From the NCBI GenBank assembly GCA_034401795.1, contig CM067360.1:53803768-53867767 (forward strand): DNA of 64,000 nt, read 5' to 3'. The translations under genes were made by a program, and so were the position numbers. The DNA comes from Chaetoderma sp. LZ-2023a. Taxonomy: Eukaryota > Mollusca > Caudofoveata > Chaetodermatida > Chaetodermatidae. Shown here in pieces: positions 3,153 through 61,639 of the stretch (positions are counted from its first letter, which is position 1; each line of letters opens with the position of its first letter). The notes below the pieces were generated by a model. That model did not search any database and was not told where the DNA came from. It saw only the letters and a program-made list of their open reading frames with translations.

Positions 3153-4593
3153 CTTAAAGTTCTCATTTCCCATTAAATATAGCCCCGTTTGCACGAAATA
3201 TGAGATGCCTGCTGATATCTGTTGAATTTACCCAGCATGCTATACTACCCACCATGCAACGCTACCCAGCATGCAATTTCCTGACTCCGTAATCGTTGTA
3301 ACTATTGGATGCCATATTCGTTTAGTCTATTTTCTGTATAGGCCAGGATTTCTTAAATAAAACCAACCCGCCTGCACATGCAAATAGTCATTTCTCCTCC
3401 AGCTCTGGAAGCGTAAGCATGCTCGTAGGGCGTATTATTCACGACAATACAATCGACGGCCTGCATTTCAATACTGTTCAGCACAAGTGTGTCAATTTCC
3501 AGAAGAAAATTAGAGAAAGCTTTTATATATATTTTGACAATAATTTGCATGAAAGTTATTGTTATCAATGACAGCAACAACATTCAGTAAAATTATTGTC
3601 AAAATAATTATTAGGTAATGCGATTACTACCTGGTACAGATTTGATAATAATTTGAATGAAAATTGTTGCTACAACAGCTTTCAGTCGCTATATTCTAAA
3701 ATAATAATCATAAATTTTAGTCAACTCACGCTATGGATTTGAATAGCGATTTGACTAAGTTGTTGGTTTCTAAGGCACCAACAACATTGTCAAATTATTA
3801 TCCACACGTGCAATCAATATATTACTGTTTAGGTAATGTGAACGTAGGCCTATATACACTTTCTCGCCAAGAATGAATGCTTAGCAAGTGGCGTGTATGT
3901 TTCGATGACAGATTTGTGCATTTGTTTGAAATGCATTGATCGAACAGAAATGTAGACCCGGTAGCTAGGCGAAATATTTCCTTCGTGCAGGTAAAGTAAT
4001 AATGAGCGCCGTGTGATTCTATGGACAACAATTTGATAATGTTGTTGGTGCCTTAGTCAGCAACAACTTAGTCAAATTGCTCTTCAAATCTATTCCAGCA
4101 ACACTTCAATAAAAATTTGTATCAAATATATAGCAGGTAGTAATTGCATTACATACTAATTATTTTGACAACAATTTGACTGAATGTTGGTGCTGTCATT
4201 GATAGCAACAACTTTCAAGCAATTTACTGTCTTATGTCTATGAAAGCTTTCTCCTATTTTCTCCTGGACATTGACACACTGAACAGTATTGAAATACAGA
4301 CTGTCGAATGCACTGCCGTGAATATGCCCTACGTGCATGATTACGCTTCCAGAGCTGGAGGACAAATGACTATTTGCATGTGCAAGCAGTTTGGTTTTGT
4401 TTGAGAAATCCCGACTTGCGCAGACAATAGACTAAACGAATATGGCGTCTAATAGTTACAACGATTATAGAGTCAGGGCATTGCATGCTGGGTAGCATTG
4501 CATGCCGGGTAGCATTGCATGCTCGGTAAATTGAACAGACATCTCATCTCTCGTGCATAAGTGTCTATTTAATGGAACACGGGTGCTTTAAGG
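3153..4593. mobile_element. Foldback element, copy 1 (about 1.44 kb)
   Basis: Long imperfect palindrome. The left arm (CTTAAAG..., CATTAAATATAG, ACCCAGCATGC repeated) matches the reverse complement of the right arm (GCATGCTGGGTAGCATTGCA, CTATTTAATGG, CTTTAAG). The arms run about 650 bp inward to a central unpaired stretch of about 200 bp (about 3835-4030). Smaller hairpins around AACAACTTTCAGTCAAATTG are nested in the arms. The element sits in the intron of the DIRS-like Gag-like gene. The short open frames inside it are not genes. Confidence 0.8.
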
Positions 4594-8257: not shown

Positions 8258-8560
8258 AGGGATCTATTTCTAGCTATGCCTCACCTATTTCTAGCTATGC
8301 CTCACCTATTTCTAGCTATGCCCAACTCATTTCTAGTTAGACCACACCCATTTCTAACTTTGAAGCCTGAATTCCTATAATCTAGGTTTCAAGGTAACTA
8401 TAAATGTACGTTGTTAAATATTTTGAAACTAAATTGGCTGGGTGGCTGTTGCTTCCTGTGCTAACAACAGCTCCCACTTCGTTTCGAAATATTCAGCAGG
8501 TTTAATAAATTCAAAGCCATAAAATTGGTACACTTTGTGACCTACTTTTTGATTTGCGTG
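8258..8560. mobile_element. Second MITE family, longer copy
   Basis: Begins with three to four tandem copies of TATTTCTAGCTATGCCTCACC, then a GAATTCCTATAATCTAGG block, then the hairpin pair TTAAATATTTTGAAACTAAA and TTTCGAAATATTCAGCAGG around the gapped motif CTGTTGCTTCC/AACAACAGCTCCC. It represents one arm plus the central hairpin of the full-length family. Confidence 0.6.
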
Positions 8561-10942: not shown

Positions 10943-11021
10943 TGTAAAGCCAGCCATCTTTGACTTGTTACTGGCTCTAGGTATTATTGCTTACCTGGGT
11001 GTAATGTACCTCGCTTCACAG
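10943..11021 (+). CDS. NCLN: Nicalin, transmembrane exon
   Basis: Acceptor TTATGTTTCAG|T, donor CAG|GTAAGA. The T completes an asparagine codon with the preceding AA. Encodes VKPAIFDLLLALGIIAYLGV then MYLASQ. This is the single membrane-spanning helix of nicalin, preceded by the conserved V-K-P-A-x-F-D-L-L-L. The exon ends in phase 0, so either downstream terminal exon (13990 or 18745) can be joined without a frame change. Confidence 0.95.
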
Positions 11022-11127
11022 GTAAGATATTCCTGATAGTTATTGTTTTCATGGAAACAATTATCCACAACTCGCCATCTTGACATCCACACCTGGTGCT
11101 TTGGGGCACATTTGGGTCTGGCCAAGC

Positions 11128-13134
11128 GGTAACGGACTCGCAAAAGAGCCACCTAAAGCAGCTTAATTTACCATAACTTTTTAATGCTGAAATTTAAAAC
11201 AAACTATTTAATATATCAATGTATTGTCCCATAATATAAATGAACTGATGTTCTGATCAATGAAGCTAACATAAACACATTGTAAATTTATGGTAACGGA
11301 CTCATGCAAATTTAGCATCATATATACAGTATTAGATGCATATGTATCTAACTAGCTGTTCTTCACATAAATTTCTCAAAATTCATATCAGATGTCTTTC
11401 ATGAGATAGTGATCTTCATTATCTTGGTTCACTTTTATTCAAATTGAGTTTTCATGAAATACTGATTTGAATTTTTGGAAGTAACGGACTCACATTTTTG
11501 TTGGTAACGTACCCGCATTTTTGTTGGTAACGTACCCGCACATCAGTCATATCCATCCAAAAATAGAAAAAGGTGGCAAAGCTGAACACAACTGATGGAA
11601 TTTGATAAATTTACAACAATGTACATGTAGATCTTATAATATAAGGGTTAGCAACATAGAATAGAGAACCATTTAATTAATTAAAGTATTAGATTGAAAA
11701 ATGTCATTGACCGATTCAAATTCTGAAATTCATAAATTGTGAAGTCTTTGGAACGGGTTTGTATCAAGTTCACAGAGACAGCAGTTACAGTTCTGTAAGT
11801 TTCTGCATCACAGTTTGTGAGTACCGTTCAATAAACTTCTGTATGACATTTTGGTAGTCAATGTCAGACAGTTTCAGAAGTTGTGTTGTGGTAGACGATG
11901 ATGGTGCAGGCAAAAATACCTATGCAAAGACATGGTTACTGGAAACGCACTCTGTGTCATTGGCCAGTTTGAAAGTATTAGTTTAATCACTGGTTTGATT
12001 TTTTTGCACCATTTTGCATCATGTTCCTGTTGACGTAGGGCATGACCAATATTGAGTTGGCTCCCGGTATACACCATACCACTGTCCAGAAATGGTCATG
12101 ACCTCTTCAGTTGTCAGATTATCCATTGGTACTACTGATGCATGATTGCATAGTGTATCTGTTAGTGCGCTATGTGACAAAAGCATATGAGTGACACCAT
12201 CATTTAATGAATAGTTCACCACTAAGATATGTCCGTAACCTAATGTTCAGATGCAGTGCTGAGACAGTTCTTGGCACTGCCACAACAAACTCACACATGG
12301 TAGCAAGACTTTTTGTCTGTTACTGTGGTGCTATCTAGAAACTAAGTTGTTGATGAGCCAACTAGAGCCTGGGCACATTCAGCATAATCTCTAGGAGTAC
12401 TGAAGTGGTGGCGACGAGTTTTAATTGCACTGAAAACTGCTCTCTACAGTACCACCTACACCATCTACAGCCCCTTTTCTGTGCGAGGTAGCAAATAAGT
12501 GCCAATTAGCTCTTAATTTCTGCTTTTCTTGCTGGCATACATGAACATAGACTTTTGTTTAAAATGTTGAGCTGCTCCATCGCTAAAAATATCAATTTCA
12601 GCAAGCTTTGTACTCCTCTTTGTCTGCAATGTATCTAGCACAGAGTCTATAAATGTCGCTGCCACATATTTATCATGTGAAAGATAGTCTGATGTTACAC
12701 AGAAAGAGTAAGTGGCATCTTGTGGCAATGCCTTCGCGGTGAAGATCGCTACTTGAGCACGAGTCCAATGAGTACGTTGTATCCCATCGTGGTCAATAAT
12801 AGTATCATTTTCACTGAAGTCAATCGGGAGGACTGCATGGTGTGACTTGGGTAATTCATGAAGGTTTTTGAATTCCATAGCTTGTTTGCATTTAATGAAA
12901 CTGTAATTTGAATGAAGGTAGCTTATCTGATAGTGTCAGTAGACACTGTACATTGTCTGGTTCCCCTTCTGTATGTATCCACTCGTACCATTTAATGTGT
13001 TCCTCCTATATGTAGGATTAGATACATACTACCATTGTTCCTCATGCACACGTGTCTTGTCCAACTGAGCATACGTAAAACAGGGTGCTACAAAACTATC
13101 ATTTACATCCCTCTATAAATGTGAGTCTGTTACC
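11128..13134 (-). mobile_element. About 2-kb element with GGTAACGGACTC ends
   Basis: The motif GGTAACGGACTC starts at 11128. Its near-complement GAGTCTGTTACC ends at 13134 and is followed immediately by another GGTAACGGACTC at 13135-13146. Further copies lie inside the left end (about 11294 and 11490, then diverged GGTAACGTACCCGCA copies at 11512 and 11526). Terminal inversion plus subterminal repeats is the layout of a cut-and-paste transposon. The centre carries a decayed ORF on the - strand (11874-13030). I cannot assign a superfamily. The target duplication is not clear. Confidence 0.55.
11874..13030 (-). pseudogene. Broken ORF of an unnamed transposon-associated family
   Basis: Read on the - strand the pieces run in order: a Trp/Glu-rich part (about 13000-12895, YEWIHTEGEPDN), then 12878-12513 (HHAVLPIDFSENDTIIDHDG, THWTRAQVAIFTAKA, IDIFSDGAAQHFKQKSMF). 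After a frame change at about 12513 comes NWHLFATSHRKGAVDGVGGT (12500-12440). A Trp-Tyr-Gly-containing tail follows (12222-12019, then 12077-11874 in another frame). The order DFxEN, then SDGxxxQxK, then ATSHxKGxxDGxGGTV is known to me from hypothetical proteins repeated in many invertebrate genomes. The invariant Asp residues could belong to an RNase-H-like nuclease; that is inference. At least three frameshifts make it a pseudogene. Confidence 0.6.
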
Positions 13135-13839
13135 GGTAACGGACTCGCCAGAATACGGTGATAATAAACAAAGTGAAAAATAAATAATAATAAATAAATG
13201 TTCATGGACTCTGAGGTCTACACTTAATGTCCTTGTTTTTTTTAATATGGTTATAATACACATAAATGTATTAAAGAATCAGCTTGATAGATATTTCTCT
13301 TATTTTTAGCTTGAGTAGTCAAAAAGTATGAAAAGAAGCATATTTCATCAACCAAGTCTGATGTCATCCTTTGTACAACAGATTACAGATGACAAAATAT
13401 TAGAGATTACGCCTAAACGTGCATGATTCCACAAAATATACATCTTTAACTACATGTATAAAAAAATGTTAATCTTTAAAATTTATTGTTGATTTTAAAT
13501 TTTGACTTAAACGTTAACATCCCCATGGCATTTGGGCTTTTGTCCATGTAGATTAGGTTTCGCTTTGGGACACATTTGGAGTTGCGTCCAGGTAGATTAG
13601 ATTTCGTTTTCTGTTGGAGAATTTAGCTTCAATTTTTCTTATGTTGGTGAAACTTCATAAAGATAGGAAGAACCCTGCTATTATATGTATCACTCCATCC
13701 ATCGGAGTAGATATGGGTAGTATATGTCCTGCCGACCATGTGTCTGTCATTGTGTGCGTGCATGCCTAGATTTTATTTTAGCTTAAAATATTTTCTCACA
13801 ATTGTGATTAAGTAATTCTGCTCTCATTATATGGAATTA

Positions 13840-13930
13840 TGAGAGTTTTACGTTTAACTGGAGGCAGTTAGGCATGTTAGGGAGCAATACTTCCAGTTAA
13901 CTTATTTCCAAAATATTCAAGAAATTACTT
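13840..13930. mobile_element. Diverged hairpin MITE
   Basis: Imperfect arms around GAGAGTTTTACGTTTAACTGGA and TTCCAGTTAACTTATTTCCAAAATATTCAAG, about 60 bp before the nicalin terminal exon. Confidence 0.4.
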
Positions 13931-13989
13931 TTGAATGGTTTCTTTGAAATTGAAAGTATTGATATATGAATATTGTCTCTTCCTTTCAG

Positions 13990-14055
13990 CATTTTTACCT
14001 GGTCTCTGGTCTGTTACAGAAAATACTTGGTGGCGATAAGATAAAAAAACACTAA
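13990..14055 (+). CDS. NCLN: Nicalin, terminal exon (canonical C-terminus)
   Basis: Acceptor CTTCCTTTCAG|CAT. Encodes HFYLVSGLLQKILGGDKIKK then H and TAA at 14053-14055. The start HF...L and the basic end match the short cytosolic tail of nicalin in other animals (Q-H-F-x-L...L-L-x-K-x-K), so this is the ancestral ending. With the exons above it completes a 223-residue C-terminal part. No strong AATAAA was seen just downstream. Confidence 0.9.
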   Translation, partial: HFYLVSGLLQKILGGDKIKKH

Positions 14056-20039: not shown

Positions 20040-20430
20040 GTACTGTTGTCTTGGAACAAAGGGATCCATTTCTAGCTATGCCCCCACCTATATTTAGCTA
20101 AGCTCTGCCAATATCTACCTAAGCTCCACCCATATCTATCTAAGCTCTGTCCATATCCAGCTAAGCTCTGCCCATATCTAGCTAAGCTCCGCCCATATCT
20201 AGCTAAGCTCCGCCCACACATTGCACATGTTGGCATCGATCGAACCCTGAATTCAGAATCCCAATATCAAGTGAACTATACAGGTAAGCTGTTGAATATT
20301 TTGAAACTAATTTCAACGGAATGTTTTTAACATCAGCCTACATATGACATAAGTGATTATGACATCATATGCTTGATGAAAGATGGGATTCATCCATTGA
20401 TTGACACATTGGAATTTCACATGTTAAAGG
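20040..20430. mobile_element. Second MITE family with expanded 21-bp tandem
   Basis: The left module is expanded into about seven copies of TATCTAGCTAAGCTCCGCCCA (about 20071-20215). Then follow GATCGATCGAACCC, TGTTGAATATTTTGAAACTA and ATGACATAAGTGATTATGAC. The right hairpin arm is missing. Confidence 0.65.
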
Positions 20431-23661: not shown

Positions 23662-25172
23662 TGGTTAAAGCGCTTGTGTTCCATTAAATATAGACACTTT
23701 TGCACGAGATATAAGATGCCTGTTCAATTTACCCAGCATGCAATGCTACCCGGCATGCAGTGGCCTGACTCCATAATTGTTGTAAATATTGGACGCCATA
23801 TTCCTTTAGTCTATTGTCTACACAAGCCAGGATTTCTCAAACAAAACCAACCTTCTTGCACGTGCAAATAGTCATTTGTCCTCCAGCTTTGGAAGCGTAA
23901 GCGTGCACGTATGGCGTATTAAAGGCAGTACATTCGACAGTCTGTATTTCAATACTTTTCAGAGAAAGTGTGTCAATGTCCAGGAGAAAATAGGAGAACG
24001 CCTTTATATACATTGACAGTAATTTGTGTGAAAGTTGTTGCTATCAATGACAAAACCAACATTCAGTCAAATTGTTGTCAAAATAATTAGTATGTAATGC
24101 AATTACTACCTGCTATATATTTGATACAAATTTTATTGAAAAGTGTTGCTGCAACAGCTTTCAGTCTATGTATTCTAAAATAATCATAATATTTAGTCAA
24201 CTCTCGCTACGGATTTGAAGAGCAATTTGACTGTACGTTGTTGGTTTCTAAGGCACCAACAACATTGTCGAATTATTATCCACACATGTGCAATCAATAT
24301 ACTACTATTTAGGTAAAGTGAGCGTAGGCCTATATACTCTTTCTAGCCGAGAATGAATGCTTAGCAAACGGCGTGCATGTTTAGTTGACGGATTTGTGTA
24401 TTTGTTTGAAATGCGTTGGTCGAACAGAAATGTACACCCCGTAGCTAGCCGAAATATTTCCTTTTGGCCATATATACTCACTCTACTTAGATAGTAATAC
24501 TGAGCGCCGTGTGATTCTATGGACAACAATTTGATAACGTTGTTGGTGCCTTAGTCAGCAACAACTAATTACAGTCAAATTGCTCTTCAAATCTGTAGCG
24601 AGAGTTGACTAAATATTATAATGATTATTTTAGAATACAGATGATTATTTTAGAATACAGACTGAAAGCTGTTTCAGCAACACTTCAATAAAATTTGTAT
24701 CAAATATATAGCAGGTAGTAATTGCATTACATACTAATTATTTTGACAAGAATTTGACTGAAAGTTGGTGCTGTCATTGATGGCAAAAACTTTCGCACAA
24801 ATTATTGTCAATGTATATAAAAGCGTTTTATTTTCTCATGGACATTGACACACTTTCTCTGAAAATATTGAAATACAGCCTGTCGAATGTACTGCCTTGA
24901 ATACGCCCACCGTGCATGCTTACACTTCCAAAGCTGGAGGACAAATGACTATTTACACGTGCAAGCAGGTTGATTGTGTTTGAGAAAGCATAGCTTGTGC
25001 AGACAATAGACTAAACAATTATGGCGTCCAACAGTTCCAACGATTATGGAGTCAGGGCATTGCATGCTGGGTAGCATTGCACGCCGGGTAGCATTGCAAG
25101 CTGGGTAAATTGAACAGGCATCTCATATCTCGTGCAAAAGTGTCTATTTAATGGAACACGAGAGCTTTAACC
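23662..25172. mobile_element. Foldback element, copy 2 (about 1.51 kb)
   Basis: Ends GGTTAAAGCGCTTGTGTTCC and GGAACACGAGAGCTTTAACC are mutual complements. Arms of about 630 bp surround a central block (about 24300-24510) that also matches the centre of copy 1 (GTAGGCCTATATAC, ATTCTATGGACAACAATTTG). A 20-bp direct duplication (GATTATTTTAGAATACAGAT) lies in the right arm at about 24620-24662. No protein that could mobilise it is encoded. Confidence 0.8.
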
Positions 25173-54420: not shown

Positions 54421-55735
54421 CACCAAATCAACCACCACCCACCACCCGCCCGGCCCGCCATGATATGTGAGACCATGGGTGGTTGTCAGGTTTGCGCACT
54501 CATACTATTCAACTGCATGAGCTAACTATAGAGCTATCAATTTGACCCTCCAAGTCCATCGGAACATTTCGAGACTAGATATTGCAAAAACAACTAGCAC
54601 ATAGTCAACTATAGTTAACTATAGCTCGCCGGTCAAACAATAAAAATGTAACCTGGTTAGTGCATGCAATATTACCAGCATATATGTCACTAGCTGGGTC
54701 ACAATAACCTTTATACGTGCATAACTGATTGAGAGTACTGCTCACATCATATCATTATTAAAACACGTATCTGGAGCCTCTTCGAAAAGGCAACGGTTCC
54801 AAAGCGTATGTTACACGTGCAAAACCAGCGTTCCCCATTGATCACCTTGGATGGCGCAATAAGATGGTCTGTCGTTAAGTTAGAGGCGTATTCTATTTTT
54901 AGATTGCTGGCCAGATTGTCTAAGTGAGTTTATGCCATCGATCCATTGCCATTTTCTTTAGGTTCTCAAGAACCGCTGGGCTAATTTCAATTAAATTTGT
55001 CAGAACGCATCTTTTGGGAATAGAGATCCAAGATTGTTCAAAGGAAGCCGATTACTAGATTTGGGTGTCGGCCATATTGTACTATTCTAGAAGCGTAGTT
55101 AAACATTTCCGAAATCACGTGGTTGATTGCTTTTGACGTCAAGAAACGTCATCTGGGCTCAGATCTTAACCAAGTTTGTTCAAATGAACTTGATTGGTCA
55201 ATATGTCAGAGAGCCATCTTGGATAACCAAGTTTTCACGAAAACTAGTTCTCGTTCAGAACGGACAACGGAATGGCCTGGAACCTGGCTTAAGATGATTA
55301 GGGACTAAGGGTCATTCAAGTTTCTTCAAGGGAAGTTGATCTGTTCAAAACGGGGTCATTAGTCCGAAATGTTGTTTGGGTCAATATTCCGAAGGTTCGT
55401 AATTCCGAAGGTCCGTTAGTCCGATTTCAAAGGGTTCATTAGTCTGAAGGATCGTTAGTCCGAAGGTTCGGTAGTCCGAATTTTGATAGATCCGTGTACT
55501 TTTAGAACATTTGAGTTGGCTGGCTAGCTCACCGACAGACCAACTGACTAATGCTGTGATTTATGCGGTAATTAATTGTGTAATTGTGTAGGTGATTGAT
55601 AGTGTTGTTTTCCTGATTACCTTAGCAACAAGAACGAAATTCAAACCAACTGACAGCTTATTTATAATGTGTAATAACAACATACTGGGCGTGTCCGCCT
55701 ATGGTGGGCGTGTTGGTCCAGGTAAAGGGTGTTCC

Positions 55736-60420: not shown

Positions 60421-61639
60421 TGCATGCAATTATACAACCGATTTATTTCATGTCCAGCTATTGCTTTTAATAAAAACTCGAATCTGTGCAATATCTACAA
60501 ATCCACCCATTCAGCGATCTCAGTCATTTTGTTCACGTGCATATTATTTACTTGAGCTGGAATTGAATCTATCTAATATCCTTTCAACAGCTTGCTGCTT
60601 CTATTATCTTCTTAGATTCGGCTTCTTAATCGTGCAAGTACGTATTCACAACGAATTCTCGCACATCGAACTGGTGCATGGATGTCGTCAAACAACGCAA
60701 GCTTGCTAAAATAATAGGGAGAAAATTTCGGAATCCTGAATTTAACCATGTATATAGTATTAAATATAAGCCTGAGAAATGCATATAAATTCGGACTAAC
60801 GAACTTTCGGACTAATAAACCTTCGGAATTAAGAACCTTCGGAATTACGAACCTTCGGAATTACGAACCCTAAGAATTTCGAACCAATGTACCTTCGGAA
60901 TTAAGACCATTTGTATTTTCGGACTAATGAACCTTCGGACCTATGAACCTTCGGAATATCGACCTGGACCCGTTAAAAACATGGCCGCCATTGACCAACT
61001 AAAGGCGAGCATTTGTTAGTTAATAGACTTGCAAGGGGAGGCACTTGTATATGATTAACTGAATAAAAAAAATCACTGAATCCACTTAAATCAGATTGTC
61101 AAGAAGCATTATGTGACAGAGAGATTGCTCAAACGAAGATAATTTCTCAGTATGGGCGGCAGTTAATATCTTCTGCTAAAGCGCTTGGCCGATTGCCATG
61201 AAACCCACAAAATTTCATTTAGGCCAAGAACTGAACCCAGTTTGTTCTAAAGAATCTTATTTATCGATTTGCGGGGCAGCCATCTTGAATGGCGTATTTT
61301 CTTTCCTCTTTTAACCTCCCCTGGAAGCGCTGAAGGGATAGGACCGAAACTTGGCAAATATAATTGGTGACTGACGTCTAAGAGCCTTAAAGTTACTATC
61401 GACCAATTAAAATTTAACTTTTGTTATTTGGTGGATTTTGAAAGAGAATATTACGATACATAGGGTTTGGGGCAATATCTTGTAGTTACTGCTATAATTA
61501 ATAAATCCGATCTGTCGCTCAGATAATTGTGATTCTTGGAATTCAGGATTCAATCTATATAAATCATTACCAACATGCGCAAAGCATGGGCGGAGCTTAG
61601 CTAGAGATCGGCGGGGTATAGCTAAAAGTGAATTCATCG

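Follow-up and report, generated by a model that had tools for sequence, protein, structure and literature searches.

A decayed transposon, most likely of the Sola superfamily, and its spaced subterminal motifs in the genome of a caudofoveate mollusc

Here we describe a decayed mobile element in a stretch of 64,000 nucleotides (nt) from the genome of Chaetoderma sp. LZ-2023a (contig CM067360.1 of assembly GCA_034401795.1; the whole stretch is called the window below). The element carries the broken remains of a transposase gene, and we regard it as a decayed, internally deleted cut-and-paste DNA transposon that most likely belongs to the Sola superfamily, as a Sola2-like element. Its intact relatives in the same genome are recent. 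A preliminary description, made from the letters of the window, had proposed an undescribed type of transposon with copies of GGTAACGGACTC as its ends.

The element and its ends

A DNA search of the genome with window 11100-13160 led to three further places, referred to here as C16 (83% and 86% identity to the window element), C13 (82% and 85%) and C17 (89%, over the first 0.4 kb only). The two sister copies in which both ends were read are each flanked by a 4-bp duplication: C16 runs from AGTT followed by GGGTCTGGCCAAGC and GGTAACGGACTCAC (left end also given as GGGTCTGGCCAAGCGGTAACGGACTCAC) to CCTTGGCCAGGCCC followed by AGTT, and C13 from ATAT followed by GGGTGTGGCCCAGC to GCTTGGCCAGGCCC followed by ATAT. 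These ends place the window copy at 11114 to 13529, with ATTT on either side. A right end at 13574, with TTTG as the duplication, was a first guess that was dropped on reading the C16 copy. The features, in window positions, are as follows.

11110..11113, no strand: left target-site duplication ATTT, by homology with the C16 (AGTT/AGTT) and C13 (ATAT/ATAT) copies
11114..13529, minus (strand of the transposase gene, whose 3' end is at 11114): whole element, from the ends read in C16 and C13; matches to other copies begin at query base 9-14 of window 11100-13160
11114..11126, plus: 3' terminal inverted repeat GGGTCTGGCCAAG, by comparison with C16 and C13
11128..11141, plus: subterminal motif copy 1, GGTAACGGACTCGC, 15 nt from the terminus
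11292..11305, plus: subterminal motif copy 2, 179 nt from the terminus
11480..11493, plus: subterminal motif copy 3, 367 nt from the terminus
11503..11516, plus: subterminal motif copy 4, GGTAACGTACCCGC, 390 nt from the terminus
11526..11539, plus: subterminal motif copy 5, 413 nt from the terminus
12345..12443, minus: transposase remnant past the third aspartate (Asp), RAVFSAIKTRRHHFSTPRDYAECAQALVGSSTT, frame 0
12424..12558, minus: transposase remnant with HRKGAVDGVGGT (third Asp at 12463-12465), frame 2
12516..12935, minus: transposase remnant of 140 residues with DFSEN (Asp at 12819-12821) and FSDG (Asp at 12579-12581), from the frame translation
13121..13134, minus: 5'-side motif, inner half of an inverted pair, from the motif scan
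13135..13148, plus: 5'-side motif, outer half of the pair; a similar pair occurs in the C16 copy and in the nearest family
13512..13529, minus: 5' end of the element, its terminal repeat about 7 nt short, by comparison with C16 and C13
13530..13533, no strand: right target-site duplication ATTT, from the window sequence and homology with C16 and C13

The minus-strand open reading frame (ORF) is broken, with DFSEN and FSDG in one frame and HRKGAVDGVGGT in another. About 1.7 kb of the gene may also have been lost from the window copy, judging by the coordinates of the matched parts in C13; an insertion in C13 is the alternative.

Exact GGTAACGGACTC occurs three times in the 64-kb window, all within about 2 kb (11128, 11292 and 13135), and with up to two mismatches there are eight copies where 1.86 would be expected; no shuffle out of 100 attained eight. 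The clustering of these copies and the position of the broken ORF between them stand as first described. Their role as termini does not, as the ends read in C16 and C13 put the copy at 11128 15 nt inside the element, and the inverted pair, with copies at 13123 and 13135, lies about 395 nt inside the right end. The motif is thus subterminal, and just 7 of its 40 exact genomic places fall in the family's four copies; with 157 places for the reversed control, it was rejected as a genome-wide marker of the family. Of five other places inspected, none had similarity to the element; four share a dispersed repeat that lies outside it, at window position ~13850-13960. This repeat also matches L006, L010, L012, L013, L053 and L059.

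Two observations concern the surroundings. Read by eye, the element lies antisense between two apparent exons of a plus-strand gene (~10943-11021 and 13990-14055). A 17-nt direct repeat, GCTTTGGGGCACATTTG at 11099-11115 and GCTTTGGGACACATTTG at 13563-13579, is unexplained and could be chance; the left copy extends across the left duplication into the element's first bases, and the right copy is found some 33 nt outside the element's right end.

Intact relatives in the same genome

Searching the window's own assembly (2.44 Gb, 2753 contigs) with the 140-residue remnant gave 1197 first-look candidates, 150 of them scored as matches, to which the remnant is up to 42% identical. Among the 150, a 721-codon open frame was present at 23 places (718-721 codons at 26) and a 765-codon frame without a stop in the match at 12. 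We retrieved 20 of the 26 places (L044-L063). Aligned to L044, the 19 others share 98.9-99.9% identity across about 4.7 kb (in two pieces for six copies), and the alignments stop sharply at CATGAATTCCA on one side and TGGAATTCATG on the other. The four flanking bases agree across both sides in 19 of the 20 copies and five bases in none, and the 20 left-side 4-mers (L058 included) have 14% G+C against 37% in the 50 nt further out. Duplications of 4 bp were also read, by eye, in all four copies of the L068/L069 and L070/L071 families. The 721 family measures 4656-4785 bp and the 765 family 4341 bp; termini are CATGAATTCCA or GGGCAATTCCA, about 11 bp. To judge by repeated local matches, one cause of the length spread in the 721 family is a short tandem stretch in the 3' untranslated part, near element base 4040-4110.

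The protein is very likely the transposase of its own element, as the preliminary description had supposed, since near-identical intact ORFs are enclosed in elements whose ends are sharp and flanked by 4-bp duplications. Ends and gene are also linked across the genome. The 14-mer AATTCCAGCGTGAC, which spans the terminus and the start of the motif, occurs 86 times (reversed control, once), and 50 of these copies lie within 5 kb of a scored gene match, where about 0.05 would be expected. All 50 are on the 3' side of the gene and point inward.

The protein and its predicted core

Outside this genome, a relative came from prokaryote genome contigs scanned with HGKGxxDGxGGxxK, a pattern that we take to be typical of this protein family. 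The scan returned three stretches, L004 and two chance matches. L004 (JAAEPJ010000558.1) is a 4028-base contig with an intact homologue in a 705-codon open frame, to which the 140-residue remnant is 31% identical over 120 residues (E-value 3e-16). L004 carries copies of a motif of its own, GTGTTGGACGTAC, to either side of the gene. Although filed under a bacterial metagenome-assembled genome, it looks like eukaryotic transposon DNA and is probably contamination; no second copy was found in that assembly. Another scan of prokaryote genome contigs with a short exact peptide pattern found no relative, and viral contigs scanned with such patterns yielded no confirmed one. The pattern-fetched viral loci L001, L002 and L077-L081, and the genome contigs L003 and L005, had no match to a profile of the aligned transposases.

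Asp381 and Asp460 are present in 10 of 10 aligned rows and Asp502 in all nine that reach it. The preliminary description had suggested three acidic positions as a nuclease centre and a fold prediction as a check; the predicted structure places them on an RNase-H-like core, where they would act in catalysis. For this core, searches of Pfam, PHROGs, NCBIfam and PDB sequences gave nothing above cut-off. Sub-cut-off matches were weak (PF25681, E-value 0.037; PF22041, 0.043; an N-terminal NCBIfam match, 0.011), the only sensible one being a PHD finger at 18.6 and 17.2 bits, below the Pfam cut-off of 24. By eye, the C-terminal domain varies: L044, L068, L023 and L043 have a PHD-like cysteine pattern, and L004 and the family nearest the window (L064) a different stretch in its place.

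The retroviral integrase catalytic core shares with this prediction the RNase-H-like fold and the place of the first Asp. It differs in its last acidic residue, which is glutamate in retroviral integrases and Asp here, and in sequence (6-16% identity among the matches listed); moreover, the protein here belongs to a single-gene DNA transposon.

Spacing of the subterminal motifs

The motif adjoining the 3' terminus of each family was searched across that element. Distances from the 3' terminus, in nt, were:

721 family: 14, 194, 379, 402
765 family: 14, 193, 380, 404
608 family: 14, 181, 369, 384
L066, of the family nearest the window: 13, 192, 377, 398
Two more copies of the nearest family: 13, 192, 364, 385 and 13, 192, 382, 403
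Window element: 15, 179, 367, 390, 413
C16 copy: 15, 190, 388, 412
L004: 14, 183, 371, 392 (one less each when counted from GGGC; the last is below the scan cut-off)

Across the six families, successive 3' gaps are 164-180, then 185-188, then 15-24 nt. Single copies can depart from the 185-188 nt of the middle gap, as two copies of the nearest family and C16 do. Measured from the 5' end in six families or copies, distances are 374-413 nt to the first motif and 519-591 nt to a second cluster, and the motif orientations there vary. The motif itself differs between families: it is GTGACGGAATCAC in the 721 family, and GTGACGGATTTAC, GTGACTCAGGTTA, GGTAACGGAATTA, GGTAACGGACTCG and GGTGTCGGACATA occur in others. 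Over 50 mapped sites the best common period between 120 and 260 nt was 184 nt, a figure without a null and from sites that are not independent. None of 200,000 random placements matched the terminal distances; since these were chosen after being seen, the result is not a clean probability.

The repeated motif is probably part of a set of evenly spaced inner sites gripped by the transposase. It could instead consist of promoter or host-factor sites of the transposase gene, which would agree with its position in the untranslated flanks, the binding by transposase being our inference. This we find rather doubtful. At least four copies are located 3' of the gene, and in each of the six families the first of them is 13-15 nt from the terminus. 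From one family to the next the motif changes and the spacing does not, and a host factor should not vary along with the transposase. Nor does shared ancestry of the DNA, without function, readily explain the array. All families descend from one element, yet there is little alignment between their 430-nt 3' ends (at most a 36-nt piece, made up of terminus and motif, between the 721 and 765 families) and the middle gap is kept in all six, one of which, L004, comes from an unrelated metagenome record. We consider this explanation very improbable.

If transposase sites are what is spaced, the distances may act as a ruler. Tentatively, the sites could sit at nucleosome-repeat length (~185 bp), at steps 0, 1 and 2 from the 3' end and 2 and 3 from the 5' end, kept across families while motif and sequence differ; phased nucleosomes would be the platform on which the transposase assembles, and chromatin order at the ends would license transposition. 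In its boldest and equally speculative form, the PHD finger that ends the protein in some families might read chromatin at these 185-nt steps. A literature search, most subscription journals being outside its reach, found no conserved nucleosome-length site array. Should the spacing reflect nucleosomes, this would be an example of a DNA transposon with end recognition built around chromatin.

Mechanism and classification

We propose that the intact form encodes one protein of about 600-770 residues, which would consist of a basic N-terminal part, a cysteine-rich middle, the RNase-H-like three-aspartate (DDD) nuclease core and, in some families, the PHD finger. Its binding site would be a motif of about 13 nt, specific to each family, that recurs at near-fixed distances, about 14, 187, 374 and 395 nt from the 3' end and 390 and 550 nt from the 5' end. 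Once bound, the protein would bring the element's two ends together, cleave at the short inverted termini and integrate the element into AT-rich targets of 4 bp.

The founding paper of Sola is reportedly that of Bao et al. In the accessible text of PMC10741241, Sola is a superfamily reported in 2009, with 4-bp duplications, a DDD transposase, lengths of mostly 2-9 kb and terminal inverted repeats of 11-1124 bp; the accessible text of PMC3627910 gives Sola2 elements AT-rich 4-bp duplications (AWWT in one case) and 12-21-bp termini. We place the element most probably in Sola because its duplication length, putative DDD core, size range and termini fit these descriptions, and its standing as an undescribed type is accordingly doubtful. 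The 4-bp duplication was found in all three groups of Chaetoderma copies (19 of 20, four of four and two of two) and was missing from L004, of another record. Intact lengths lie within 2-9 kb and termini reach 11 bp. With respect to Sola2, the duplications are mostly AT-rich and not all AWWT, and the termini are about 11 bp (11-13 bp overall), beside the 12-21 bp described. The fixed-distance motif array and the PHD finger are features that the accessible descriptions of Sola do not mention.

An unnamed superfamily of its own, sharing the 4-bp duplication and DDD core with Sola by convergence, would suit a catalytic core without above-cut-off matches in Pfam, NCBIfam and PDB sequences, and a 4-bp duplication alone is not unique to Sola. 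Set against this, duplication length, AT-rich target, putative DDD core, element size (4.3-4.8 kb) and terminus length all agree with the published Sola descriptions, and we judge separate status unlikely. The piggyBac and Kolobok superfamilies duplicate TTAA, which is one of the 19 matched 721-family duplications, and were rejected. Dada elements are likewise DDE-type DNA transposons of invertebrates, yet in the accessible text of PMC3706591 they have 6-7-bp duplications, small-RNA-gene targets, introns and CCCC and CCHC zinc fingers; membership was rejected on the 4-bp duplications found here. It is hardly conceivable that the window holds a Dada-like insertion into tRNA-like sequence. The left flank TGGCCAAGCGG does resemble the consensus of a tRNA A box, a resemblance only. 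In the C16 and C13 copies, however, it belongs to the element's own end, the duplication has the wrong length for Dada, and ARAGORN finds no tRNA in the window.

Several points weigh against the reading of a Sola-like element whose transposase binds spaced inner sites. The Sola likeness is drawn from published descriptions of the superfamily. The predicted structure has a mean predicted local distance difference test (pLDDT) score of 66, and Foldseek alone gave one match at an E-value of 0.001 or lower, to a terminase nuclease, with low overall template-modelling (TM) scores. L058 lacks a matching duplication, as does L004, whose 12-nt inverted ends GGGCAATTCCAT and ATGGAATTGCCC have unlike outer bases (AGAA, ATTT). 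For 36 of the 86 AATTCCAGCGTGAC copies no scored gene lies within 5 kb, with 150 of 1197 candidates scored. The first and third gaps of the array vary, and the array was not found in the short 3' flanks of L023, L025, L041 and L043 (none of four) by a scan that recovered the 721 control; in L043 the terminus 14-mer lies about 660 nt beyond the flank piece scanned. In the window, the right terminus is inferred because its last ~7 nt are absent, and the outer 5' motif of C16, 169 nt outside its pair, is missing along with about 150 bp around it.

An abundant protein family without a Pfam-A or NCBIfam match to its core is now tied to transposon ends, a 4-bp duplication and a predicted integrase-like fold. 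Young intact copies exist and could be tested.

Other repeats in the window

Three short arrays of related 17-nt units lie at 3229-3276 (TACCCAGCATGCAACAC, from 3229), 4478-4528 (GCATTGCATGCTGGGTA, from 4478, a near complement of TACCCAGCATGCAACAC) and 25057-25107 (GCATTGCAAGCTGGGTA, from 25057), and are perhaps repeats of another element. Related 21-nt units, CTATTTCTAGCTATGCCTCAC and CCATATCTAGCTAAGCTCCGC, form two arrays at 8264-8356 and 20066-20216, and 16-nt units rich in TTCGGA/TCCGAA are arrayed at 55386-55480 and 60790-60957.
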